Source: Myxococcales bacterium
GTDB taxonomy: Bacteria; Myxococcota; Polyangia; Nannocystales; Nannocystaceae
Assembly: GCA_016793465.1 (NCBI GenBank)
Contig: JAEUJW010000008.1
Location: forward strand, 124,001 to 188,000
Direction of reading: 5' to 3'
DNA length: 64,000 bases
The notes beneath the pieces were generated by a model. The model was not told the DNA's origin, ran no database searches, and saw nothing but the letters and a program-made list of their open reading frames with translations. Shown piece by piece: positions 20,302-32,040 of this stretch (positions are counted from its first letter, which is position 1; each line of letters opens with the position of its first letter). The position numbers and the translations under genes were made by a program.

Positions 20302-22437
20302 TCAGCCGCGCGGGTCCATCGCGCAGCGGAACCCGATCCCGTGGGTGTGCGCGTCGGCGTCGTACGGCAGACGCAGCGCCGGATCGGCGTGCTCCGGTTC
20401 GAAACTGTTGAAGGCGCCGCCGCGGATCACCCGGTTGTTGTGCGGCGGCATCGCCGGGTCGGTCCCGTCGGGCCGCGGATAGGGCTTGTAGGCGTCGGCG
20501 GTCCACTCGAACACGTTGCCGACCACGTCGAACAGCCCGGCCTGGGTCTTGCCCGCCGGGAAGCTGCCGACCGGCGCGGTGCCCGGGAACCCGTCGTCGC
20601 CGGCGTACAGCGTCGACACCGGCGGCAGCCCGGCCGTCTTGCGCCACGCCGCGCACTCGCTGCCGCAGCCGTTGAGGTGCTGCTGGTCCGGCGAGTCGTC
20701 GCCCCACGGGAACACCCGCCCGTCGGACCCGCGCGCCGCGAACTCGAACTCCGCCTCGCTCGGCAGGCGCTTGCCCTGGACCTTGCAGTACTCGTCGGCC
20801 TGCGACCACGTCACGCAGTTGATCGGGTGCTGCAGGCGATCGGTCTCCGCGTTGCACAGCGGCGAGTAGGCCGCCCGCGCCTTCTCCCAGTCCGGCTTCT
20901 TCATCGACCCCTGCGGCCAGAAGCTGTCCTTGGAGGCCCGCTTGCAGTCCCCCGACTTCGAGCACGCCTCGTACTGCGCGGTCGTCACCTCGTACAGGTC
21001 GATGCAGTAGCGCGCGACCTCCACCTTGTGCGCCGGGTTGGCCGCCGCCAGCACCGGCTTGACCGCGTCGGTGCCCATGAAGAACCGCCCGCCCTCGATC
21101 AGCGCCATGCCATCGAGGCACGGCGTCGGCGGCGCGACCGGCGGCGCCGGCTGCTTGCTGTCGACCGCCACCGCCTCGCCCTCGCGCTTGCTCGGCTCGG
21201 GCGGCGGCGGCGGGGCGCCGCGGGTCAACGCGAACGCCACGCCCCCGACGACCAGCGCCGCACCCACGCCGATCGCGATCGCCTTGCCGTTGCCCGGCCG
21301 CCTCGCCAGCGGCCCGCTGGCGTTGACGATCGTCGGCGCCTTGACCGGGTTGTGCGGCGACGGCGTCTGGACCGGCGGCTGCGTCGCCGGCGTGGCCACC
21401 AGCGCCGACACCGCCCGCGACTGCGCCACCGACCCGCTGGTGGTCGTCAGCCCGGTTGTCAGCAGCAAGCTGTCGGCCGTGGGCAGCGGCGCGTAGTCCT
21501 TGATCCGCAGCGCGCTCGCCAGCGCCATCCAGAACTCGGCCATGTTCTGGTAGCGGTCGACCACCTTGAGCGCGACGGCTTTTTTAAACACCGCCTCGAC
21601 CTCGTCGTCGACCTCGAGCCCGAACAGCCGCGGCGTCGGCCGACGGTCGGGGTTCTGCGACGAGAACGCCAGCTGCATGAACTGCTCGCCGCCCAGCGTC
21701 GGCGCCCCGCCGCGCAGGATCTCGACGATCACCAGCGCCATCTGGAACACGTCGGTCCACGGCCCGGTCGCCCCGTAGGTGCGGTCGAACTGCTCGGGCG
21801 CGCCGTAGTTCGGCGTGAAGCTCGAGACTTGCATGCCGGTCGCGTTCTGGGCCGCCCCCTGCGACTGCTGCATGACCTTGGCGATGCCGAAGTCGAGGAC
21901 CTTGATGACCTGTCCGGGGATCAGCTCGTCCCCCAGCACGAAGAAATTGGCCGGTTTAATGTCGCGATGCGCCACCCCCAGCGCGTGCGCCAGGGCCAGC
22001 GCCCGCACCGCGCCGTCCATGATATTGAACGTCTCGAGCACGCCGCGTTTGGGGCCGCGGGGTTCGCCGCCGTCGTGGCCGAGGAACGACTCGAGCGTGC
22101 GCCCGTCGAGCCACTCGAGCACCATGTACGGCAGCCACGCGCCGCCCGGGGTCGTCAGCGTGCCGATGTCCCGCGCCTGCACGATGCCGGTGGTGCGGCT
22201 CGACAGCTTCGACAGCAGCTTGCCTTCTTGCACGAACTGGTCGAGCAGCTCGTCACGCACCTCGACCGGCGCGTTTGACAGCGCCGTGAAGCACTTCAGC
22301 GCGACGGGCTCGTCCCAGATGCGGTGCGTCGCCTGGAACACGACGCCGAACCCACCCTCGCCGACCACCCGCTCGATGGCGTACTTGTCGGCCACGATCG
22401 TGCCGACCAGGGCGTAGCGGTCGCTGGATGCGGTCAA
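20302..22437 (-). CDS. Ser/Thr protein kinase fused to a formylglycine-enzyme (SUMF1)-like domain
   Basis: A 711-residue two-part protein. Residues 10-280 form an eukaryotic-type kinase: glycine loop GEGGFGVVF, VALKCF lysine, HRDIKPANF (catalytic Asp159) and VLDFGIAK. A Pro/Thr-rich linker and one hydrophobic helix (about 382-405, IAIGVGAALVVGGVAFALT) follow, so the C-terminal part is probably periplasmic. Residues 443-711 are an FGE-sulfatase domain: MALIEGGRFFMGTD, CVTWSQADEYCKVQGKRLP, GNVFEWTADAY, RVIRGGAFNSF and GIGFRCAMD. In such fusions the domain may be a C-type-lectin-like sensor rather than a sulfatase activator. A TTG start at 22437 fits the frame and leaves a 119-bp divergent promoter region. 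Confidence 0.87.
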   Translation of the reverse strand: MTASSDRYALVGTIVADKYAIERVVGEGGFGVVFQATHRIWDEPVALKCFTALSNAPVEVRDELLDQFVQEGKLLSKLSSRTTGIVQARDIGTLTTPGGAWLPYMVLEWLDGRTLESFLGHDGGEPRGPKRGVLETFNIMDGAVRALALAHALGVAHRDIKPANFFVLGDELIPGQVIKVLDFGIAKVMQQSQGAAQNATGMQVSSFTPNYGAPEQFDRTYGATGPWTDVFQMALVIVEILRGGAPTLGGEQFMQLAFSSQNPDRRPTPRLFGLEVDDEVEAVFKKAVALKVVDRYQNMAEFWMALASALRIKDYAPLPTADSLLLTTGLTTTSGSVAQSRAVSALVATPATQPPVQTPSPHNPVKAPTIVNASGPLARRPGNGKAIAIGVGAALVVGGVAFALTRGAPPPPPEPSKREGEAVAVDSKQPAPPVAPPTPCLDGMALIEGGRFFMGTDAVKPVLAAANPAHKVEVARYCIDLYEVTTAQYEACSKSGDCKRASKDSFWPQGSMKKPDWEKARAAYSPLCNAETDRLQHPINCVTWSQADEYCKVQGKRLPSEAEFEFAARGSDGRVFPWGDDSPDQQHLNGCGSECAAWRKTAGLPPVSTLYAGDDGFPGTAPVGSFPAGKTQAGLFDVVGNVFEWTADAYKPYPRPDGTDPAMPPHNNRVIRGGAFNSFEPEHADPALRLPYDADAHTHGIGFRCAMDPRG

Positions 22438-22556
22438 GCGGTGGGATTGTAAGGCAGACGGTGCAAACCCGCATCCGGGGGTTTGGACCGTTCCGCGTCG
22501 GTTTTTTGCAGGGCCCGCCGACCGCCGGTAGGGTCGCCCACTTGCTGGAGGCCCCG

Positions 22557-24584
22557 ATGCCGGCACCGCGTCACCTGACCCTCGTCCTCGCCCTGCTCGG
22601 GCTGCCCGACCTCGCCGCCGCCGCCGCACCGCGCGCAAACGCCCCCGGATCTCCCGCCGATAAGTCCGCGAAGCCCACGAAGTCCGCGAAGCCGGGAGCA
22701 TCCGCCGGGTCCGGCGAGCCGGCCCCGGCGGGACCTGTCCTCAAGGCCAGCCGGACCGGCGCCCCGGCGAAGCCGACCCCGGGCAAGCCCGGCGGCGGCG
22801 CGACCACCGCCGGCCGGTCCGGCGCGGTCGACAAACCTGACGCCGCTGGCGTCTCGCCCGCTGCCGCCTCGAAGACCGCCGCGAGCCCCCGCCCCGCCCG
22901 CAAGCCCGGTTCGTCCGGCGTCGCCGCCGAACAACCCGCCGCCAGGCCGGCGCCCGCCGCTCCGTCTCTCGCCGTCGATCCGTCCGCCGCCGCCAAGTCG
23001 GCCCCCGTCGACCCTGCGTCGTCGAAGCCCGGCAAGTCCGCCCCGCCGCGCAATCCCGGCCCCGACAGCAAGTCCAACCCCACGCCCCCCGACTCCGCGC
23101 CGGCCGCCAGGTCCGTCACGCCGAGCCCCACGCCCGACGGCCCGTCCGCCCCGGAAGCCCCCGCGAAGACGGCCCGCCCCGGCAAACGCGACGCCGCCGC
23201 CGCACCTGACCCGAAGGCCAGCTCCTCCGCACCTGACCCGAAGGCCAGCTCCTCCCCGGACCCCGGCTCGACTTCACCTGACCCGAAGGCCAGCCCCGCG
23301 AGCAAGCGCCCGCGGTCCGCCCGCGCCGCACGTCCGCCCCGCGACCCCCTGCTCGCCGCCCACCCGGTCGGCTGCAACCTCGACCCGCTCGAGGCCGTCG
23401 CCCAGCGCCAGCACGAGCGCACGCGCGCCTCTCTGCGCGAGTTCTACTGGTCCGACATGGCCCGGTTCTTCGAGACCACCCTCGACGAGGCCGAGCCGAC
23501 CCCGCGCCAGGCCGACGACCCGGCCTTCCTCCGCGCCGCCGACGTCATCGCCGCCCTGCCCCGCGACGTGCGCGCCCCGCTGTCGACCCTCGCCGCCGCC
23601 CGCGTGGTCGACCGCCTGTCCGAGCGCCCCTGGGCCAACACCCACAAGCTGCTGCAGACCCTCGCGCCCGCCGACGTCGCCGCCCTCCTGCGCGCCGACT
23701 CGCCGACCCTGCGCGCCCACGTCTACACCTGGCTGGCGACCACCAGGCAGGGCGGCTGCCACCTCGGCCACCTCGACCTCGGCCTGCTCGAGGCCGCCGT
23801 CGCTGACCGCAGCATCGCCGTCGAGCACGGCGACGACCTCGTCTACCGCTCGCTCGGCGACTACGCGCTCGAGGCCCGCGCCCGCCTGGCCAGCCGCGAC
23901 CCCGCCCGCTTCGACGCCTTCCTCGCCCGCCTGACCGCCGACACCGAGATCGACCCGCTGGTCCGCGCGACCGCCCACGGCATGCTGCTGCGCCGCGCCC
24001 ACTGGGAGGCCCTCGACGTCGGCCTGCGCGACCCCAGCCCGCCCGTGCGCGCCGCCACCGCCGCCGCCGCCGTCGAGATGAACCGCGACAAGCTCGAGGC
24101 CCGCCTGGTCGAGCACGCCGCCAGCGACCCCGCCGACCTCGTCACCGAGCTCGTGGTCGGCGCCCTGCTCGGCGTCTACGACCCGCACAACCACGGCAAG
24201 CCGCAGGTCCGCGGCCTGCTGGCGACCACCCGCGACGAGCGCCTCACCTCCGCCGTCGAGCGCTGGCGCGGCCGCGGCGACCCGATCGCCCCGCTGCCGG
24301 TCCCCGCCCGCCCGCTGCGCCTCGCCGCCGCCCCGCAACCTGTCCCCACGGACAGCCTCGACCAACCTGTCCCCGCGGACAGCCCCGCCCCCGCGCTCAG
24401 CCCGCCGCAGCGCCCGTCCGGCGCCTCCCCGGCCGCCGCCGCCATGATCCTCGAGGCCGCCGAGCCCCCGCTGCCCGGCCGCGCGCGCACGCAGCCCCGC
24501 AGCGAGCCCGCGCGCCCCGCCCTCCCGGGCGTGCAGGACCGCGACGACGATGAGACAATCACCATCCCGCCGGTCCGCCCCTGA
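22557..24584 (+). CDS. Secreted low-complexity protein with HEAT-like helical core
   Basis: A 675-residue exported protein. A signal peptide (HLTLVLALLGLPDLAAAAA) precedes about 230 residues of Lys/Pro/Ala/Ser repeats, including three PDPKAS units. Residues 260-580 are helical with repeated Leu/Ala patterns and segments such as LRAHVYTWLATTRQGGCHLGHLD and PVRAATAAAAVEMNRDKLE that look like HEAT repeats. The C-terminus is Pro-rich again (PVPADSPAPA). GGAG five bases before the ATG supports the start. The Lys-rich part could bind cell wall or DNA, but no function is known. It is divergent from the kinase-FGE gene and may be functionally tied to it. Confidence 0.7.
   Translation: MPAPRHLTLVLALLGLPDLAAAAAPRANAPGSPADKSAKPTKSAKPGASAGSGEPAPAGPVLKASRTGAPAKPTPGKPGGGATTAGRSGAVDKPDAAGVSPAAASKTAASPRPARKPGSSGVAAEQPAARPAPAAPSLAVDPSAAAKSAPVDPASSKPGKSAPPRNPGPDSKSNPTPPDSAPAARSVTPSPTPDGPSAPEAPAKTARPGKRDAAAAPDPKASSSAPDPKASSSPDPGSTSPDPKASPASKRPRSARAARPPRDPLLAAHPVGCNLDPLEAVAQRQHERTRASLREFYWSDMARFFETTLDEAEPTPRQADDPAFLRAADVIAALPRDVRAPLSTLAAARVVDRLSERPWANTHKLLQTLAPADVAALLRADSPTLRAHVYTWLATTRQGGCHLGHLDLGLLEAAVADRSIAVEHGDDLVYRSLGDYALEARARLASRDPARFDAFLARLTADTEIDPLVRATAHGMLLRRAHWEALDVGLRDPSPPVRAATAAAAVEMNRDKLEARLVEHAASDPADLVTELVVGALLGVYDPHNHGKPQVRGLLATTRDERLTSAVERWRGRGDPIAPLPVPARPLRLAAAPQPVPTDSLDQPVPADSPAPALSPPQRPSGASPAAAAMILEAAEPPLPGRARTQPRSEPARPALPGVQDRDDDETITIPPVRP
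23205..23294 (+). repeat. Three copies of the dispersed 18-bp palindrome encoding PDPKAS
   Basis: CCTGACCCGAAGGCCAGC occurs at 23205, 23232 and 23277 within the low-complexity part of the preceding protein gene. The same 18-mer occurs on the minus strand at 29417-29434 in the TonB receptor gene. Confidence 0.85.
24339..24383 (+). repeat. Two copies of the dispersed 18-bp palindrome encoding PVP(A/T)DS
   Basis: CCTGTCCCCACGGACAGC at 24339 and CCTGTCCCCGCGGACAGC at 24366, 27 bp apart and in frame, near the C-terminus of the secreted repeat protein. Confidence 0.85.
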
Positions 24585-24616: not shown

Positions 24617-25639
24617 TCACACCTGCACCGCCGCGCACGCCCGCGGCGCCCCCTCGAGCTGCAGGCAGTAGGCCACGAACGCCGCGAACACCGGCCGCGG
24701 CGCCCCCTGCGTCGGCAACGCGTGCAGGTGCAGCGCCGGGCGCACGTTGACCTCGAGCACCACACCTGTCCCTTCGGCCAGCTCCGGCGCCGCGCGGAAC
24801 ACCGCCAGCGGCCCGCGCAGGTCGACCCCGCCGACGTCGACGCCCAGCCACCCGCACGCCTCGATCGCCACCCGCGCCCAGCCCGGGTGCAGCTCGTCGG
24901 TCCGGTCGATCACCTCCGCCTCCTCCCCCGTGATCTCGACCTCGACCCCGTCCGGCACGCGGGTACCCAGGTCGATCCCGTGCACCTCGAGGTGCGCCAC
25001 GAGGTCCTCCTCCGGCTCGATGCGATCCATCGGCTCGAGCCCCGGCGCCGCCCAGCTGCCCCGCCGCGCGTCTCGATTAAAAACTTCGATCTGCGCCGCC
25101 GCCGAGCTCCCGCCGACGATCCGCGGCCGCTGCACCTCCGCCGCCGCCACGTACTCCCCGCCGATCACGCACACCCGCAGGTTGACCCCCGCCACGTACG
25201 GCTCGACCACCGCCTCCTCGTCGCCGTCGACCGCCTGCGCCCGCGCGACCGCCCGCCGCGCCGCCGCGATCGTGCGCACGTCCGTCGTCACCCCGACCCC
25301 GCGGTTCCCCCCGTTCGGTTTGACGACCACCCGCCCGTGCCTTGCGAGCATCGCCCGCACATCGGCGCCATCCGCCTCGTCCCCGTCATCCACCAGCAAC
25401 CCCGGCACCACCGGCAGCCCGCGCCCCGCCAGCAACTCGCGGCTCGCGTACTTGTTGTTCGAGAGCGCCTGCGCCACCGCGGTCAGGAACGGCGAGCGCG
25501 TCTTGCTGATCACCGCCTGCCGCTCGCCGAGCCGCAGCCGCATCAGCAGGTCGGTGTGCCGCCCCGACAGCGCCTCCGCCGCCCCTCCGAGCCGCTCGAC
25601 CGCGGCTTTGATCAACAGGTTGGTGCGGCTCCAGCTCAC
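24617..25639 (-). CDS. ATP-grasp ligase resembling GshF/cyanophycin synthetase
   Basis: A 340-residue ATP-grasp enzyme, last gene of the iron-linked operon. The N-terminal part (RTNLLIKAAVERLGG, ALSNNKYASRELLAGRGLPV) and the nucleotide-binding core (VVVKPNGGNRGVGV, VVEPYVAGVNLRVCVIGGEYVAAA) match the ligase domain of GshF and CphA; the C-terminal GVDLRGPL...VLEVNVRPALHLHALP is also CphA/GshF-like. Such enzymes activate a carboxylate as acyl-phosphate and join it to an amine. At this length there is no second ligase or glutamate-cysteine-ligase domain, so it makes a single bond. The GTG start at 25639 overlaps the upstream stop (GTGA). The substrate is unknown; a polyamine or amino-acid conjugate is my inference. 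Confidence 0.8.
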   Translation of the reverse strand: MSWSRTNLLIKAAVERLGGAAEALSGRHTDLLMRLRLGERQAVISKTRSPFLTAVAQALSNNKYASRELLAGRGLPVVPGLLVDDGDEADGADVRAMLARHGRVVVKPNGGNRGVGVTTDVRTIAAARRAVARAQAVDGDEEAVVEPYVAGVNLRVCVIGGEYVAAAEVQRPRIVGGSSAAAQIEVFNRDARRGSWAAPGLEPMDRIEPEEDLVAHLEVHGIDLGTRVPDGVEVEITGEEAEVIDRTDELHPGWARVAIEACGWLGVDVGGVDLRGPLAVFRAAPELAEGTGVVLEVNVRPALHLHALPTQGAPRPVFAAFVAYCLQLEGAPRACAAVQV

Positions 25640-26580
25640 CGCGACAGGGTCTCCAGGACATGTCCCTGGGGACTGGTCGTGTACGACAGCAGCGCGCCCT
25701 CGCCGGTGATCACCTCGCCCGGCTGGTCGAGCCGCGCCTGCAGGTACGGCGGCAGCTCGAGCATCGCCCGATGGCTCGTCGGCGTATACACCTTCATCTT
25801 CGCCCGCCCGACCCGCTCGATGCGCGCCTCGAGGTCCGCCGGCACCTTGGCCCGCTCCCCCTTGGCCACCAGCGCGAACGCCCACAGCGAGTGGAACGAC
25901 GGCACGTACGAGTGCGCGAACGCCACCCACGGGAACACCGCCTTCAACGTGCTGTTGATCGTCCGGGCCACGCGCAGGTCGATCGGGTCGAGCTCCCCGG
26001 CCTGCAGCACCGCGATCCCGTCGTCCGCCAGGGCCCGCTCGACCAGCGCGAAGAACTTGGTCGAGAACAGCGCCGCCGACGGCCCGTCGGTGATCGGGTC
26101 GGTGATGTCGAGCAGGATCACGTCGAACGACCCCGGCGCCGCGTCGGCGAGCGTCACCATGATGTCCTCGACGCGCTGCTCGACCCGCTGGTCGTCGAGG
26201 CTGCCCATGCCCCAGGTCGGCAGGTGCTCCTTGCAGAGCGCCACCACCTCGGGGTCGAGGTCGACGGTCAGCACCGACTCGACCGTCGGATGCTTCAACA
26301 CCTCGCGCAGCGCCGCCCCCTCGCCGGTCCCGCCGATCAGCACCCGCCGCGGCCCGCCGTGGATCACGAACGCCGGGTGGACCAGCGCCTCGTGGTACAG
26401 CGGCTCGTCGGCCTCGGCCGACTGCACCAGCCCGTCGAGGAACAGCGTGCGCCCGTACGCCGGCGTCTCCGCGATCAGCACCTCCTGACCGGCGGCCGTC
26501 CGCGTCCTCACCACGATCTCGTCGATGCCGATCAGCATCGACACTCCGTCGATCTCGGGTTCCTGAAGGATCAGGTGCAT
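25636..26580 (-). CDS. Aminopropyltransferase (spermidine/thermospermine synthase family)
   Basis: A 314-residue SpeE-fold enzyme, fourth gene of the iron-linked operon. The N-terminal domain has the family's LIAETPAYGRTLFLDGLVQSAEADE and YHE (62-64). The nucleotide site reads GGTGEG (83-88), with Glu87 where spermidine synthases have Asp, and TVDLDP (Asp107). Catalytic LLDITDP keeps Asp158 and Asp161. The AGE and VPSFHSLWAF segments resemble plant ACL5-type thermospermine synthases. It should transfer aminopropyl from decarboxylated SAM to an amine, though a methyltransferase-like activity is not excluded. Its ATG overlaps the upstream stop by one base and its stop overlaps the ATP-grasp start. 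Confidence 0.85.
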   Translation of the reverse strand: MHLILQEPEIDGVSMLIGIDEIVVRTRTAAGQEVLIAETPAYGRTLFLDGLVQSAEADEPLYHEALVHPAFVIHGGPRRVLIGGTGEGAALREVLKHPTVESVLTVDLDPEVVALCKEHLPTWGMGSLDDQRVEQRVEDIMVTLADAAPGSFDVILLDITDPITDGPSAALFSTKFFALVERALADDGIAVLQAGELDPIDLRVARTINSTLKAVFPWVAFAHSYVPSFHSLWAFALVAKGERAKVPADLEARIERVGRAKMKVYTPTSHRAMLELPPYLQARLDQPGEVITGEGALLSYTTSPQGHVLETLSR

Positions 26581-27074
26581 CACGTCTCCTTGGCTCGTCG
26601 GCGCCGACGCGCCGCGAACATCCATACCCCGGTCACCCCGAGCCCCGCCAGCGACACCGCGCCCGCGAACACCACCAGCTCGCCGAAGCTCCCGCCGATG
26701 GCCCCCGTGTGCAGTTTAAATAGCCACTGCATCCACGTGCCGCGGGTCGTGCGCGAGCCCAGCACCGCCCCGTCGCCCGCCAGGTAGACCACCGTCTCCG
26801 CGTCGTCGTCGAGCCAGAACTGGTACGGGTCGTCCGCCTCCGAGGGCAGCGTGATGTCCGTGACCGGCTCGCCCGGACCCGCCGCCACCGCCCGCGCGAT
26901 CAACGCCTCGAGCCGCAGCGGCCGCTCGACCGCCGGCGCCCGCGGCGGCGGCCCGGCCTTGAAGTACTCGCGGAACGTCAGGATCCCCCCCGTCACCGCC
27001 GTCAGCAGCAGCACCAGCGCCGCGGCCAGACCGACCGCCTGATGGACCTGAAACAATCGCCGCCGGACGCTCAC
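26580..27074 (-). CDS. PepSY-type transmembrane protein
   Basis: A 164-residue membrane protein with an N-terminal helix (QAVGLAAALVLLLTAVTGGILTF) preceded by VRRRLFQVHQ and followed by an extracytoplasmic PepSY-like domain (PVTDITLPSEADDPYQFWLDD, ETVVYLAGDGAVLGSRTTRGT), then LHTGAIGG and a second helix with an Arg/Lys-rich end. The H...H pattern (VHQAVG and KLHTG) is typical of the PiuB/FiuB-like proteins next to siderophore receptors, thought to reduce or release iron at the inner membrane. It is shorter than usual (two helices instead of four). GTG start overlaps the receptor stop (GTGA); its stop overlaps the next ATG. Confidence 0.82.
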   Translation of the reverse strand: MSVRRRLFQVHQAVGLAAALVLLLTAVTGGILTFREYFKAGPPPRAPAVERPLRLEALIARAVAAGPGEPVTDITLPSEADDPYQFWLDDDAETVVYLAGDGAVLGSRTTRGTWMQWLFKLHTGAIGGSFGELVVFAGAVSLAGLGVTGVWMFAARRRRRAKET

Positions 27075-29566
27075 ATCCACGCCCCCAGCATGCCGCCCCA
27101 GACCCGCTGCATGAACCGCCCGTTGCGCTTCGCGGTCGCGGTCCACTGCCGGCGATCGGGCCGCTGCGCGTTGCGGCGGGCCCGCGCCTGCTCGGCCTCC
27201 CTGGTGCGCACCCACTCGTGGGCGATCGCCAGGTTCAGATAGAACGTCCGCGGCCGCATCGCCATGATCCCTCCGTTGAGGTCGTCGCTGCGCGTGTACC
27301 ACACCTGACCGAGCAGGTTCTTGGCCCCGACCGTGAACTCGACCCGCCACCCGCGCGGCAGCGCCGTCCGCATGCCCACGTTGGCGCTCATCAGCGTGTA
27401 CGCCGGCATGACGCCGATCTCGCCGGTCTCGCGGTCGTAGCGCGAGTAGTTGTAGTAGTCCGAGAACTGCGCGCCGGTGTAGTCGACGTGGGTCCCGAAC
27501 CGCAGCCCCCACGGGAACTCGTACTGCCCGCCGCCCCACGCCTCGTGCACCGGGTACCACGGCATCTTGTGGCCCGCGAAGTTCGGCCCGCGCACCCAGC
27601 TCCCGTTGTACGCATAACCCGCGTCGAAGCTGAGCCCCTCCACGGCCTCCCACACCTCGCCGGGCTCCCACTCGACGTCGAGCTCGACGCCCCACACGTG
27701 CGCGTACGGCAGGATGTCGACCCCGTCCGTGCCTTCGTCGCGCAGCGTCTTGAAGTACTTATAAAACCCGTCGGCGGTCGCGTACACCCCGCCGAGGTCC
27801 ATCAGCTTGACCCCGAGCTCGAGCAATTCGGCCCGCTCCGGCGTGATGAACCCGAGGCCCGGCTTCGGCATCGACTGGTTGCCGAGCGTGGCCGCGTAGT
27901 AGCTCGGCGCCCCGAACGAGCGCCCGTAGCCCGCGTACCCGGCCACGTGGTCGCCGCCGTACCACACCGACAGCGCCGGCAGCACCCCGCCGATCACCTG
28001 CGCCGGCAGCGTCTCGCCGTCGAGCAGATTATAGAAGCGCTGGCGCATGATCTCGCCGCGCAGCCCGCCGGTGATCACCAGCGCCGTGTCGAGCAGGTAC
28101 AGCTTGTCCTCCGCGTACAGCGAATAGCCGCCGGTGCGCCCGTCGAGGCAGCGGCGCGCCGCCTGCGACGGGTCCGCCACCTCGGAGCCCCGCGGGCACG
28201 CGCGCACGTCGCCGAGCGGCTGGTTCGAGTCGATCGGCGTCAGCCAGTAGTCGCGCAGGCGGGCCGTCTCGAACACCCCGCGGACCCCGAACGACAGGTC
28301 CTGGAACAGCTGCTTGTGGCGCAGCCGCAGCGCGTAGCGCGGCTCGACCCCGACCACGTCGTAGACCCGCGGCAGGCTGCGCAGGTGCATCGGCGCCGCC
28401 GACAGGTTGGTGTCCTCGTTGCTGGCCACCAGGTTGCGGCGGAACGTGTGGCTGTAAAACCCGATGACCTGGACCTCGTGGTCCGCGCGCGGCGTGACCT
28501 TCAGCTTCAGGTTGCTCGCCTCGCGGTGGCCGTCGAAGCGGTCGTGCGGGCGGTTCGACTGGTAGCGGTCGCCCTCGTTGAACTGCGTCCAGGTGATGCC
28601 GCCCGGCAGGTTGGTGCGCTCCCAGAACAGGTGCGTGTTCGACTCGAGCGCGACCCGCCGCGAGATCGGGAAGTGCAGCTTGACGATGCCCGCGTGGCTG
28701 AGGAACTCGCTGTGCTCGCGGTACGTGCGCCCGAACCGCGGCGCGTACTCGAAGAACATGCCGATCTTGCGGTGCGTGCCGCCGTACGAGCCCGCCACGC
28801 CCGCGTCGCCGAACTGGTCGACCTGCCCAGCCACCGATACCGTCGGGTTCACCGGGATCGGGTGCGACACCATATTAAAGACGCCGCCCGACGTCCACGG
28901 CCCGAAGCGCACCGACGAGCCGCCGCGCACCGTGTCCACCCGCGCGATCTGGAACAGCGACAGCGGGAACAGGCTCAGCGACGGCGCCCCGTACGGCGCC
29001 GGCGCGATCGGCACTTCGTCGAGCATGACCGTCGCCTGCTCCGCCAGCCGCGGGCTGGCCCCGCGCACCGCCACGTTCAGCTTCGTCGACGCCGTCCCGG
29101 TCCCCGACACCCCCTCGACCGCCCGCACCCCCGGCACCTTGTCGAGCGCCTCGGCCACCGACGCCGCCCCCTGCGCCTGCGACTCTTTAATGTCGAGGAT
29201 CGCCCGCCCGCCCGCGTGCCGCTGCACGTCGAGCCGGGTCGAGCGCCCGAGCAGGCTGGTCGTCACCTCGATGTAGCGCACGTCCCGCTCGAGCCCGCCG
29301 TTCGCCGGCACCCCGGGCACCCGCCGCGGCGCCGGCGTCGGGCTGTCCTCGCGGACAGGTTCGATCTCGCTGTCCTCGGGGACAGGTTCGGCGGCGGCCG
29401 GCGCCGGCATCGCCGGGCTGGCCTTCGGGTCAGGCTCGGCGCCCGGCGGGGCCCCTGCGCTCGCCGGCCAGCCCGCCGGCGCGACCGCCTGGACCCCGAC
29501 GTACGCGCGCACGTCGGGCGGCGCGAGCACGGCGCCCGAGAGCACGAGCTGGATCGCGACCGCCAC
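27071..29566 (-). CDS. FecA-like TonB-dependent outer-membrane receptor
   Basis: An 831-residue receptor. A signal peptide is followed by a Pro-rich linker with three copies of the dispersed repeat, then a plug domain (VAEALDKVPGVRAVEG, LNVAVRGASPRLAEQATVMLDEVPIAP, IARVDTVRGGSSVRFGPWTSGGVFNMVS) close to FecA/ferric-dicitrate receptors, and a 22-strand-type barrel ending in FYLNLAIAHEW. There is then a basic 40-residue tail beyond the usual final strand. It imports an iron chelate with TonB energy; FecA likeness hints at a citrate-type or other carboxylate ligand. GTG start at 29566 lies 4 bp after the lipoprotein stop. No FecR-type signalling extension is seen. Confidence 0.9.
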   Translation of the reverse strand: MAVAIQLVLSGAVLAPPDVRAYVGVQAVAPAGWPASAGAPPGAEPDPKASPAMPAPAAAEPVPEDSEIEPVREDSPTPAPRRVPGVPANGGLERDVRYIEVTTSLLGRSTRLDVQRHAGGRAILDIKESQAQGAASVAEALDKVPGVRAVEGVSGTGTASTKLNVAVRGASPRLAEQATVMLDEVPIAPAPYGAPSLSLFPLSLFQIARVDTVRGGSSVRFGPWTSGGVFNMVSHPIPVNPTVSVAGQVDQFGDAGVAGSYGGTHRKIGMFFEYAPRFGRTYREHSEFLSHAGIVKLHFPISRRVALESNTHLFWERTNLPGGITWTQFNEGDRYQSNRPHDRFDGHREASNLKLKVTPRADHEVQVIGFYSHTFRRNLVASNEDTNLSAAPMHLRSLPRVYDVVGVEPRYALRLRHKQLFQDLSFGVRGVFETARLRDYWLTPIDSNQPLGDVRACPRGSEVADPSQAARRCLDGRTGGYSLYAEDKLYLLDTALVITGGLRGEIMRQRFYNLLDGETLPAQVIGGVLPALSVWYGGDHVAGYAGYGRSFGAPSYYAATLGNQSMPKPGLGFITPERAELLELGVKLMDLGGVYATADGFYKYFKTLRDEGTDGVDILPYAHVWGVELDVEWEPGEVWEAVEGLSFDAGYAYNGSWVRGPNFAGHKMPWYPVHEAWGGGQYEFPWGLRFGTHVDYTGAQFSDYYNYSRYDRETGEIGVMPAYTLMSANVGMRTALPRGWRVEFTVGAKNLLGQVWYTRSDDLNGGIMAMRPRTFYLNLAIAHEWVRTREAEQARARRNAQRPDRRQWTATAKRNGRFMQRVWGGMLGAWM
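29342..29434 (-). repeat. Three copies of the dispersed 18-bp palindrome in the TonB receptor linker
   Basis: Minus-strand copies at 29342-29359, 29369-29386 and 29417-29434 encode PVREDS, PVPEDS and PDPKAS in the linker between signal peptide and plug domain. Confidence 0.85.
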
Positions 29567-29570
29567 CCGC

Positions 29571-30743
29571 CTACTCGACCGTGATCGACGTCGCCCCGCG
29601 GATGCGCACGCTCAGGTCGCTCGACGTGAACAGCGGCGCCAGGTCCTCGTGGACCTCGACCTTCCAGCCCGCGTCGCCGCTCGGCTCGCTGAAGCGATAC
29701 ACCGTGCCCGCCGTGGTGATGCCGTAGAGCACGCCCTGCACGCGCGCCAGCCCCTCGATGTCGAACCCGGCCGCGATGCCCTCGACCACGGGTCCATAGG
29801 CCGTCGGCGGCCGATCGGCGGCCTCGAGCGGCACCTCGAACAGCGCGTTCTCCCCCGCCGGCAGCTCGTCGGAGCCCTCGCCGCGGACCAGCGCCAGCAG
29901 CTCGCCCGCGGGCCCGGCGATCACGTCGCCGGCCACGCCGATCTTCTCGTCGAAGGTCGTCCAGGTCGCGCACACCTTCTCGCACGCGTAGTACTTGGGG
30001 TCCTGCGAGATGTCGGCCGGCAGCACGCAGTGCTCCGGCGCGTCGACGAACCCGCCGTCGATGGTGAACACCGCCCCGCGCGCGTCGAGCCCGTTGCCCG
30101 GCTTGCCCGCCGAGCCGGCGTACAGCGTGTCGCCGACGAACCCGAGCCCGGTCATGCTCTGCCGCCAGTAGCAGTCGTCGGTCGCCGCGTCGTCGACCGG
30201 CCCGTATTTGAAGGCGTAGCGCACGCTGACCACCCGGTTGTCGCTGCGCGTCCAGTCCGCCACGCCGAGCGTCATCAGGCCCCACTCGTCGTTGAGCGGG
30301 TCGTAGCTGAGCCCCCACAGGCCCTTGTCCGGGTGCCAGGCCAGGTCGCGCACGCTGAAGCGCCGCAGCGAGTCGTCGCCGACCGAGATCGGCCCCATGG
30401 TGTCGTCGAGCCACAGGTTGCCGACCTTCGCCACCCGGCAGCCGGCGCCGCCGTCGTCGCACTGCTTGCCCGGGTCGTAGAGATACAGCGCGTTGCCGAC
30501 GTAGCGGCCCTCGCCGTCGAGCTGGTAGTTGATCGTGAAGTTCGAGTCGACGTCCGTGAGCTTGGTGTTGACGAACAGCATCAGCTCCCCGCGCAGCGGC
30601 TGGCCCTCCGCGCAGCCCTCGCACAGGTCCACCCCCTCCGGCAGGCCCTCGCCCTCGAACGGGTCCACGCCGTGCTCCCCGAAACCGATGCACCCGGCAA
30701 CCCCGAGCCCCAGCACGAGGCCCGTCTTGAACATGACTTTCAT
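29571..30743 (-). CDS. Surface lipoprotein of the iron operon, propeller-like
   Basis: A 390-residue lipoprotein, first gene of the operon. MFKTGLVLGLGVAGCIGF gives a lipobox (VAGC). Near the N-terminus is LCEGCAEG; further Cys pairs occur (CDDGGAGC, CVLP...CEKVC). The body is beta-rich with repeated turns such as VRDLAWHPDKGLWGLSYDP and VAGDVIAGPAGELLALVRG, suggesting a beta-propeller. It probably sits in the outer membrane beside the TonB receptor, perhaps helping ligand capture, as SusD-like or HasA-like partners do. No named family is recognised. The start is ATG at 30743 or the second ATG nine bases later; neither has a strong ribosome site. Confidence 0.75.
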   Translation of the reverse strand: MKVMFKTGLVLGLGVAGCIGFGEHGVDPFEGEGLPEGVDLCEGCAEGQPLRGELMLFVNTKLTDVDSNFTINYQLDGEGRYVGNALYLYDPGKQCDDGGAGCRVAKVGNLWLDDTMGPISVGDDSLRRFSVRDLAWHPDKGLWGLSYDPLNDEWGLMTLGVADWTRSDNRVVSVRYAFKYGPVDDAATDDCYWRQSMTGLGFVGDTLYAGSAGKPGNGLDARGAVFTIDGGFVDAPEHCVLPADISQDPKYYACEKVCATWTTFDEKIGVAGDVIAGPAGELLALVRGEGSDELPAGENALFEVPLEAADRPPTAYGPVVEGIAAGFDIEGLARVQGVLYGITTAGTVYRFSEPSGDAGWKVEVHEDLAPLFTSSDLSVRIRGATSITVE

Positions 30744-30754
30744 TTATTTTGGGC

Positions 30755-30783
30755 TGTCTAGCACCGGGTTTTTGCGCGGTCAA
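30755..30783 (-). promoter_or_regulatory. Sigma-70-like promoter of the iron operon
   Basis: On the minus strand TTGACC (30783-30778), a 17-bp spacer and TAGACA (30760-30755) lie just before the lipoprotein start at 30743, giving a very short leader. Confidence 0.5.
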
Positions 30784-30819
30784 GCACCTCGATCGTGCGA
30801 ATTCCGGATCCCTTGTTTT

Positions 30820-30834
30820 TGATAATCGTTTTCA
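30820..30834. promoter_or_regulatory. Fur-box-like site between divergent lipoprotein genes
   Basis: TGATAATCGTTTTCA matches the 7-1-7 Fur consensus TGATAAT-N-ATTATCA at 12 of 14 positions. It sits in an AT-rich stretch, unusual for this genome, between the genes starting at 30743 (minus) and 30850 (plus). It is about 16 bp before the plus-strand start, where Fur would block the promoter, and about 37 bp upstream of the minus-strand -35 element. Confidence 0.65.
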
Positions 30835-30849
30835 ATATTCACCCGCTCC

Positions 30850-32040
30850 ATGCGCTTCTCGACCCTCCTGCTCCTCCCCTGCCTCGCCTGCCTGGCCTGC
30901 GGCGCCGCCGACAGCGGCGACGACACCGGCACCGCGACCTCCGGCGAGACCGGCGACGCCACCACCACCCCGACGACCGGCGAGCCGGGCGGCGACCTCA
31001 ACGACCGTGAGCTCGGCGCCGACGCCAGCCCGGCCTGCCTCGCGGCCGCGCCGAAGGTCGCCGAACTCACGGGGGCCGCCGACGCCGCCGCCGCCGCCGC
31101 CGCCTACACCGGCGCGCTCCAGACCTACGTGCAGGCCCTCGACGCCGCCAACATGCGGGCCGACGACGCCGAGATCAGCGCCTGGCTGACCGACGGCAGC
31201 CCGGCCGCCCTCGCCGCCGCCAACGCCCGCGTGCACGTCGCCCTCGCCGCCCAGTACCGGGCCTCGCTGGCCGCCGTCGAGGAGGGCGCCGAGGACCGCT
31301 ACGCCGCATGGGACGAGGCCCACTGCGCCTACACGGCCGCCCTGCGCGCGCTCGCCGAGGAGGCCGACGGCGCCACCTGGCACGACGTGTCCGAGACCAT
31401 CACCGCCGACATCGACGGCGCCCTGCAGACCGGCCACGACGGCATCAGCGGCGAGCCCCCGGCCACCGCGATCGACGAGTGGCGCGTGCTCTCGAGCAAG
31501 CAGGTCGCCGAGAAGTCCCTGTTCCGCGCGTTCCACCGCGTGATCGTCGAGCTCGCCGGCCAGCAGGAGGAGGTCGCGGCCCGCCGCGCGCTCGAGCTGT
31601 TCGGCGCGCTCGAGGACCGCCTCGACGGCCGCAACACCCCCGGCATCCAGCAGGTCAAGGACATGCTGTCCGGCGACCCCGCCGCCATCGACGCCGCGGC
31701 CATCCGCAAGGAGCTCGACCTCGCGTTCGCCAAGCGGACCCGCCGCTACTGCACCGCCGCGATCGACGACGGCGAGGTCGCTACCCCGACCGGTTACAAG
31801 GGCGCCGTCGAGGGCATCACCTACGCCAAGCTGATCCTGCCCGGCATGCTCGCCGACGTCGCCGCCGCCGACGCCATGGCCTACCTCGGCGAGTGGGGCG
31901 CCTACGCCGAGCTCGTGCGCACCGGCGAGGACGAGGCCTCGCTCGGCGTCGTCAGCGGCCGCATCGCCGACCAGACCTGCGCCTACCAGACCGCCCTCGG
32001 CGTCGCCGAGTGCACCGGCGAGACCGACGAGACCGAGTGA
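30850..32040 (+). CDS. Helical lipoprotein divergent from the iron operon
   Basis: A 396-residue lipoprotein (LLLPCLACLAC lipobox region) with a short Asp/Thr/Gly linker and a long alpha-helical domain of alternating Ala, Leu and charged residues. Conserved-looking elements include WDEAHCAYTAALRALAEE, FRAFHRVIVELAGQQEE, RRYCTAAIDDGE and QTCAYQTALGVAECTG. The all-helical layout with paired His/Glu/Cys residues recalls periplasmic iron-linked helical proteins such as imelysins, but the signature motif is absent, so this is only a comparison. The Fur-box-like site lies about 16 bp before the start, implying iron control. It is probably made together with the divergent receptor operon. Confidence 0.65.
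   Translation: MRFSTLLLLPCLACLACGAADSGDDTGTATSGETGDATTTPTTGEPGGDLNDRELGADASPACLAAAPKVAELTGAADAAAAAAAYTGALQTYVQALDAANMRADDAEISAWLTDGSPAALAAANARVHVALAAQYRASLAAVEEGAEDRYAAWDEAHCAYTAALRALAEEADGATWHDVSETITADIDGALQTGHDGISGEPPATAIDEWRVLSSKQVAEKSLFRAFHRVIVELAGQQEEVAARRALELFGALEDRLDGRNTPGIQQVKDMLSGDPAAIDAAAIRKELDLAFAKRTRRYCTAAIDDGEVATPTGYKGAVEGITYAKLILPGMLADVAAADAMAYLGEWGAYAELVRTGEDEASLGVVSGRIADQTCAYQTALGVAECTGETDETE

Follow-up and report, generated by a model that had tools for sequence, protein, structure and literature searches.

The DNA analysed here is a stretch of 64,000 nucleotides (hereafter, the window) from contig JAEUJW010000008.1 of a myxobacterium of the family Nannocystaceae, and its minus strand carries a five-gene operon that may belong to a siderophore system. 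In order of transcription, the genes encode a lipoprotein of 390 aa with a predicted beta-propeller fold (29571..30743), a TonB-dependent receptor distantly similar to FecA (27071..29566), a short PepSY_TM inner-membrane protein of 164 aa that is a candidate part of a ferri-siderophore reductase (26580..27074), an aminopropyltransferase of the SpeE family (25636..26580), and a stand-alone ATP-grasp ligase of 340 aa related to the ATP-grasp domain of cyanophycin synthetase (24617..25639). The successive junctions from the lipoprotein gene to the ligase gene were +4, −4, −1 and −4 bases, with the PepSY_TM gene overlapping the receptor stop by 4 bases, in agreement with the original prediction of a minus-strand run with overlaps of 1–4 bp or a 4-bp gap. 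In the five relatives measured, the genes are packed less tightly, and gaps reach 70 bases. A Fur-box-like operator lies upstream of the operon (30820..30834), and a divergent gene on the plus strand encoding an all-helical lipoprotein (30850..32040), which the original prediction did not include, has this Fur-site region in common with the operon.

The ligase was most similar to models of cyanophycin synthetase, N-acetylglutaminylglutamine synthetase and GshF, and its best PDB match was 7lg5. It fell far below the threshold for cyanophycin synthetase itself (153.6 vs 877 bits) and aligned only with profile positions 183–468 of 871. The ligase, described earlier as GshF/CphA-like, most resembles the central domain of cyanophycin synthetase, with GshF among the nearest models. 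Lys107, Glu146, Asp273, Glu296 and Asn298 were invariant in 21 sequences; since these ATP-grasp residues are kept, amide formation from an activated carboxylate is the reaction expected of the ligase. CphA and GshF have the ATP-grasp domain and the catalytic residues in common with the ligase, whereas the ligase stands alone at 340 aa and lacks the second ligase domain of CphA. A plasmid search returned 26 records, all with less than 60% identity, and among the 10 listed, seven were annotated as cyanophycin synthetase and three were unannotated.

The aminopropyltransferase matched PF01564 with 128.6 bits (cut-off, 22.9), which places it among SpeE/SpmS-type proteins, and also matched PF17284. 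Its scores remained below the cut-offs for canonical SpeE (TIGR00417, 200 vs 249.55 bits; PRK00811, 219.4 vs 260 bits). The closest solved relatives were 7xif, 3anx, 1uir and 3o4f, followed by 1iy9 and, level with it, ACL5 (6bq2, E 3e-39). ACL5, to which the enzyme had been likened earlier, ranked sixth and was not the closest solved relative. In 13 sequences including that of the window, the GxGEG and YHE motifs were invariant, and DxTDP was kept save for one Asp-to-Glu change.

The receptor contains a Plug domain (PF07715), and FecA was its best NCBIfam model with 260.9 bits, far below the equivalog cut-off of 1100 bits. Therefore, its earlier description as FecA-like stands as a distant similarity (261 bits) and does not extend to membership of the FecA family proper. 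The PepSY_TM protein scored 64 bits with PF03929 (cut-off, 28.8), its 164 aa aligning with profile positions 1–162 of 295. No family match to the operon lipoprotein was found at E ≤ 0.1, and the TM scores of the 50 Foldseek matches listed were all poor (0.20–0.34). A role as a BtuG-like lid for the receptor was considered and rejected; BtuG1 appeared only at rank 43 (E 7.3e-3, TM 0.29), so the lid is only an analogy.

A scan of contigs with an alignment of the ligase yielded 14 loci, seven from Nannocystis, two from Enhygromyxa, one from Plesiocystis and four from unclassified metagenome-assembled genomes (MAGs). According to tblastn, the order lipoprotein, receptor, PepSY, aminopropyltransferase and ligase was intact in eight of the 14 loci (L002–L006, L012, L013 and L014). 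The same order was kept in L008 with a homospermidine-synthase-like gene inserted, while L001 and L009 start inside the receptor gene at a contig end and have the lipoprotein gene on another contig, which is consistent with the five-gene order. In Enhygromyxa (L007 and L011) and Plesiocystis (L010), the ligase and aminopropyltransferase genes lie apart from the receptor gene, and the divergent gene, the lipoprotein gene and the receptor gene are found together at another place. The gene set thus comprises two modules, one for import and one for synthesis. With a fifteenth genome described below (G143), the operon genomes number 15; 12 of them have the modules joined or seemingly so, G001, G009 and G143 each being judged across two contigs, and the other three have them apart. 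The search proposed in the original prediction has thus been run, and it revealed conservation of the gene order in Nannocystis, Enhygromyxa, Plesiocystis and unclassified relatives. In the Plesiocystis locus (L010:3502-5829), the aminopropyltransferase and ligase genes are separated by a TerB-like gene and a gene for membrane transport (PF03547), and the latter could encode an exporter. In L014, from Nannocystis pusilla Na p29, the receptor, aminopropyltransferase, ligase and divergent genes have frame breaks, which are probably sequencing errors of the assembly.

We then examined how the genes are distributed. A scan of 289 class genomes, a subset of a larger group and with the seven best candidates per genome scored, gave only 14 with a ligase of at least 405 bits; the next score was 170 bits, from a frame of the size of cyanophycin synthetase, and this gap marks the ligase off from CphA as a separate family. 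Among the 29 genomes of the order, 14 carried the ligase, and G143 had part of it, its contig breaking off within the gene after a readable start. The operon lipoprotein was found in the 14 ligase genomes and G143, and the operon-type aminopropyltransferase in the same 15, with at least 472 bits in 14, whereas the G014 copy is in two fragments (280 and 252 bits). The line is narrower for the latter gene since the best other copy scored 424 bits. The other 14 of these 29 genomes showed neither the ligase (E 1e-70) nor the lipoprotein (E 1e-10), some of the order genomes being MAGs of unknown completeness. On a RecA protein tree, which represents one gene from 28 of the 29 genomes (G067 was left out for want of the same paralogue), the presence pattern required five changes, at least three of which were forced by well-supported branches: G116 falls within the group of G008 and G009, and G086 lies beside G013, both without the gene set. 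The gene-set label was still clustered on the tree, only one of 500 shuffles being as low. Together with the conserved order and the Fur-like sites described below, the co-occurrence, which persists even where the locus is split, makes a functional link between receptor and enzymes well supported at the level of sequence.

The distribution also bears on the possibility that the aminopropyltransferase and ligase are passengers, that is, genes of ordinary polyamine or storage metabolism that came to lie behind the receptor gene by chance. The operon aminopropyltransferase is far from the only SpeE-family protein here: 12 of the 14 genomes encode stronger SpeE-like proteins elsewhere (E about 1e-53 or better), so that the operon copy is an extra one in them, while in G008 and G009 it is itself the best SpeE match. 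Moreover, relatives of 360–424 bits occur in G013, G086, G103 and G130 (two), and in the four judgeable regions (L162, L163, L165 and L166), no ligase, receptor or siderophore synthetase homologue was found beside them; L164 (G086) and the copies of 263–273 bits in G020 and G037 were left out of this comparison. Such chance association, which we consider quite improbable, is opposed by the conserved order, the tight spacing, and a distribution in which the genes are present or missing together throughout 29 genomes, with no fewer than three changes on the RecA tree.

The operator was evaluated in the window and in relatives. The pattern TGAAAANNNTTTTCA, with at most one mismatch, matched the 64 kb window once, at 30820-30834, where the minus strand reads TGAAAACGATTATCA, and matched in none of 100 dinucleotide shuffles. 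The best score in the window against the 19-base Fur consensus was 14, as compared with 11–13 for the best score of each of 40 simulated sequences, and no match with three or fewer mismatches to this consensus was found in the window. The best score before or over the lipoprotein start was likewise 14 in the window and 14–15 in 12 of the 15 relatives examined, the remaining values being 13 (G007 and G011) and 12 (G010); hence, 14 of the 15 operon genomes have a site of 13–15 of 19 at the lipoprotein gene. One such site lies approximately 90–150 bases upstream of the lipoprotein start (the start in G007 is approximate). The Fur-box-like site reported earlier was thus borne out as a single match in the window with counterparts before the lipoprotein start in relatives. 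A possible second, weaker site (30729..30747, minus strand; 12/19) covers the start codon of the lipoprotein gene. Its counterpart scored 13–14 of 19 in six Nannocystis loci (L002–L006 and L014), and a site scoring at least 12 covered the start codon in 12 of the 15 relatives, among the three best matches listed per locus (G007 by sequence).

In eight whole genomes, TGAAAANNNNTTTCA gave 4 to 27 strand-hits each and the reversed pattern 0 to 2, with a match at the lipoprotein gene in seven of the eight (none in G010). Among 21 other site regions from five of these genomes, which are a subset of the sites, 14 had an iron gene nearby: Bfd/bacterioferritin at L093 and L095 (by Pfam) and at L099, L102 and L108 (by eye only), FeoAB at L107 (FeoB by Pfam), imelysin at L091, L097, L098 and L101, a TonB receptor at L089 and, oriented towards the site, at L100, and a siderophore synthetase pair with an LCM-type methyltransferase at L096 (Pfam) and L092 (by eye). 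There was no clear iron gene in the other seven (L090, L094, L103, L104, L105, L106 and L114). By having its operator in common with known iron genes, the operon qualifies as a putative member of the Fur regulon, and its control by iron is well supported as a prediction from these motifs. The presence of the same motif at bacterioferritin, FeoAB and imelysin genes also argues against a metal range beyond iron, with a chelator made and imported for copper or another metal, an idea prompted by the PepSY_TM protein CrpH, which is encoded in an operon with a TonB-dependent copper importer (excerpts of PMC13038864); we find this alternative very doubtful. In G013, methyltransferase genes lie right by Fur-like sites at L103 (LCM family by Pfam) and L106 (by eye), the latter followed by an ABC-transporter-ATPase-like gene.

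Nonribosomal-peptide-synthetase-independent siderophore (NIS) synthetases were sought with PF04183 in the 29 genomes of the order, and two kinds were found, a tandem pair and a single, divergent synthetase. The divergent synthetase, of the IucA/IucC type (E about 1e-26 to 1e-36), was present in 14 of the 15 operon genomes, 12 of these 14 being compared by sequence and G004 and G014 classed by score alone, and was not found in the operon-free genomes among the 29. In G001, the NIS gene is represented by two contig-end fragments, of which L130 aligned with the divergent kind and L129 did not. The divergent NIS gene and the ligase gene are arranged tail to tail in G008 and G009, and about 11 kb of the same contig separates them in G012; in the other genomes the two are not close, the distance in G002 and G006 being about 240 kb. 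All three divergent proteins scanned, out of the 15 genomes, exceeded the cut-offs of PF04183 and PF06276, and their best NCBIfam model was FslA of rhizoferrin synthesis (E 4e-25 to 4e-26), at 88–91 bits as compared with a cut-off of 1000. No NIS gene was found in the window (best E 0.086), and a divergent one is presumably present in the window's own genome. The co-occurrence of this synthetase is a strong new argument that the operon enzymes make an iron chelator.

The tandem NIS pair (E about 1e-38 to 1e-77) was found in G002–G007, G010, G011, G014 (in pieces) and G110. This pair leads to another explanation, in which the receptor, lipoprotein and PepSY_TM protein serve uptake only, importing a foreign or separately made siderophore such as nannochelin or ferric citrate, and the product of the aminopropyltransferase and ligase is a polyamine conjugate that stays internal and serves iron handling or stress. 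In Nannocystis, the pair lies elsewhere in the genome and near a Fur-like site; FecA is the nearest model of the receptor; nannochelin A has been isolated from N. pusilla (PMC4902002, excerpts); and where the modules are split, the import module keeps Fur-like sites (weak, 12/19, in G010), whereas the synthesis module has none at its promoter. However, the operon co-occurs with the divergent synthetase and not with the tandem pair, which was not found in G008, G009, G012, G013 and G143 and is present in the operon-free G110. We regard the uptake-only explanation as rather unlikely. In Nannocystis poenicansa (G002), the set at L092 comprises a Fur-like site, an LCM-like methyltransferase (by eye) and a lipoprotein (C1:10011911-10016911) with the tandem IucA/IucC pair (C1:10017094-10020517), and is a candidate nannochelin locus; nannochelins are methyl esters. 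A similar set, with the methyltransferase identified by Pfam, occurs in Enhygromyxa at L096.

A further partner is a homospermidine-synthase-like gene that adjoins the aminopropyltransferase gene, divergently oriented, in L007, L008, L009, L010 and L011, so two polyamine enzymes meet at these loci. It occurs as one copy each in five of the 29 genomes and had no match in the Nannocystis genomes. PF03435 was detected in three of the four proteins scanned, and homospermidine synthases were the top PDB group for the profile. Eight conserved residues of the B. viridis enzyme have been named (excerpted text of PMC4725965), two of which are Tyr323 and Asp361; the six compared here, Asn162, Glu210, Trp229, Glu237, His296 and Glu298, are all kept, as judged by eye from profile alignments, and are invariant in four rows. 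At the entry channel, Gly and Asp take the places of Asp94 and Glu117, which counts against identity as a homospermidine synthase. The presence of this partner in five genomes strengthens the case for polyamine chemistry. Besides, SpeD was found in 12 of the 14 genomes, so that decarboxylated S-adenosylmethionine should be available in them. As to the original prediction that the last two enzymes make, or detoxify and modify, the imported chelator, the divergent NIS gene speaks for making, and no result spoke for detoxification or modification.

Based on these results, our best reading is that the operon follows the logic of rhizoferrin or vibrioferrin systems with an aminopropyltransferase and a cyanophycin-synthetase-type ligase added. 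That it forms part of a complete system for synthesis and uptake of a carboxylate siderophore on a polyamine backbone we consider about evenly balanced. Gene order, conservation, co-occurrence, the Fur-like motif, enzyme families and kept catalytic residues were read from the sequences, and from these we infer the substrates, order of steps, product, transport and regulation as described below. The aminopropyltransferase would lengthen a diamine or polyamine with decarboxylated S-adenosylmethionine, the starting polyamine being supplied in some genera by the homospermidine-synthase-like enzyme. The ATP-grasp ligase would activate a carboxylate with ATP and form an amide on the polyamine backbone, and the single NIS synthetase, encoded elsewhere in most genomes, would add citrate or a similar acid to give a polyamine-based carboxylate siderophore. 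The iron complex would re-enter through the TonB receptor with the help of the propeller lipoprotein, the PepSY_TM protein may help iron release by reduction, and Fur would repress the set when iron is plentiful.

Several observations weigh against such a complete system. In Enhygromyxa and Plesiocystis, the synthesis half is unlinked from the receptor gene and has no notable site at its promoter, the best scores in the three split synthesis loci being 11–13 at positions away from the promoter. No Fur-like site was found at the eight NIS promoters examined (of 15), where scores reached at most 9/19. The second, tandem NIS pair of Nannocystis could make the ligand of the receptor. Within the operon, no gene for an exporter was recognised, a PF03547 transport gene lying between the aminopropyltransferase and ligase genes only in Plesiocystis. 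Finally, the PepSY_TM protein is short. By description, PepSY_TM ferri-siderophore reductases of the FoxB type combine a large periplasmic part with no fewer than four membrane helices (excerpts of PMC13038864).

The proposed polyamine-backbone system has partial precedents. In rhizoferrin systems, the coupling of citrate to a diamine backbone is the work of a single NIS synthetase (PMC7857480, excerpts); those of Ralstonia, Legionella (LbtA) and Francisella (FslA/FigA) resemble the present set in the single NIS and in FslA being the best model, whereas the aminopropyltransferase and ATP-grasp ligase are additional here and the NIS gene is usually unlinked. The Fur-dependent pvs/pvu genes for vibrioferrin encode PvsA, which is an ATP-grasp carboxylate-amine ligase, along with IucA/IucC synthetases and a TonB receptor (excerpted text of PMC12838400) and thus offer a precedent for an ATP-grasp ligase, a NIS and a receptor in one set, but no polyamine enzyme is described in that text. 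PvsA is likened to our ligase by description alone, and no PvsA model was among the NCBIfam matches of the ligase; its role is untested, and formation of a citrate ester has been proposed in a review (PMC5577590, in part). A FoxB-like protein occurs in hiuABC of Caulobacter, which encodes a Fur-regulated TonB receptor with a PepSY inner-membrane protein (excerpts of PMC13001220) and resembles the present operon in Fur control and in pairing receptor with PepSY, but includes no biosynthetic enzymes as far as those excerpts go; HiuB is similar to FoxB, a protein with two PepSY domains and at least four membrane helices (excerpts of PMC13001220 and PMC13038864), which by estimate is more than would fit into 164 aa. 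Spermidine and homospermidine serve as siderophore backbones in petrobactin and rhodopetrobactin (PMC7857480, excerpts), which differ in having catecholate parts.

No paper on this gene set, including its combination with an aminopropyltransferase, was found in the open-access PMC literature. Polyamine siderophores usually take their backbone from general metabolism, and that of petrobactin and rhodopetrobactin comes from there and is not known to depend on a dedicated aminopropyltransferase. We put forward, tentatively and as a possibility short of an expectation, that Nannocystis and its relatives make a new siderophore class, in which the backbone is purpose-built by an iron-regulated aminopropyltransferase, in some genera with a homospermidine synthase, and is decorated by a CphA-type ligase and a distant rhizoferrin-type NIS, with a beta-propeller lipoprotein serving the receptor. 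If so, an aminopropyltransferase inside the iron regulon would tie polyamine synthesis directly to iron supply, and an undescribed metabolite would be predicted in cultivable strains of Nannocystis, Enhygromyxa and Plesiocystis. The carriers of the gene set are myxobacteria of soil and sea. The aminopropyltransferase, the stand-alone CphA-like ATP-grasp ligase, the divergent NIS and the propeller lipoprotein provide a marker set for genome mining, and because they are spread over separate loci, they may easily be missed by cluster-based tools.

The divergent helical gene lies beside the operon lipoprotein gene in relatives and was present in 14 of the 15 operon genomes. It was considered as a strict partner of the operon and rejected, since it was not found in G008 and has paralogues elsewhere, with more than one copy in many genomes and a distant copy in the operon-free G086. 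The AlphaFold2 model of its product had a pLDDT of 84; no PDB match was found by Foldseek at E ≤ 0.001, and no Pfam match exceeded the cut-off in four members. At L115 (G013 C62:7000-15000), genes for a larger PepSY_TM protein, TonB and ExbD lie beside the operon's divergent gene, along with another Fur-like site. Elsewhere in the window, a gene at 20302-22701 encodes a protein kinase fused to a formylglycine-generating-enzyme-like domain, a type of fusion that is common in myxobacteria.

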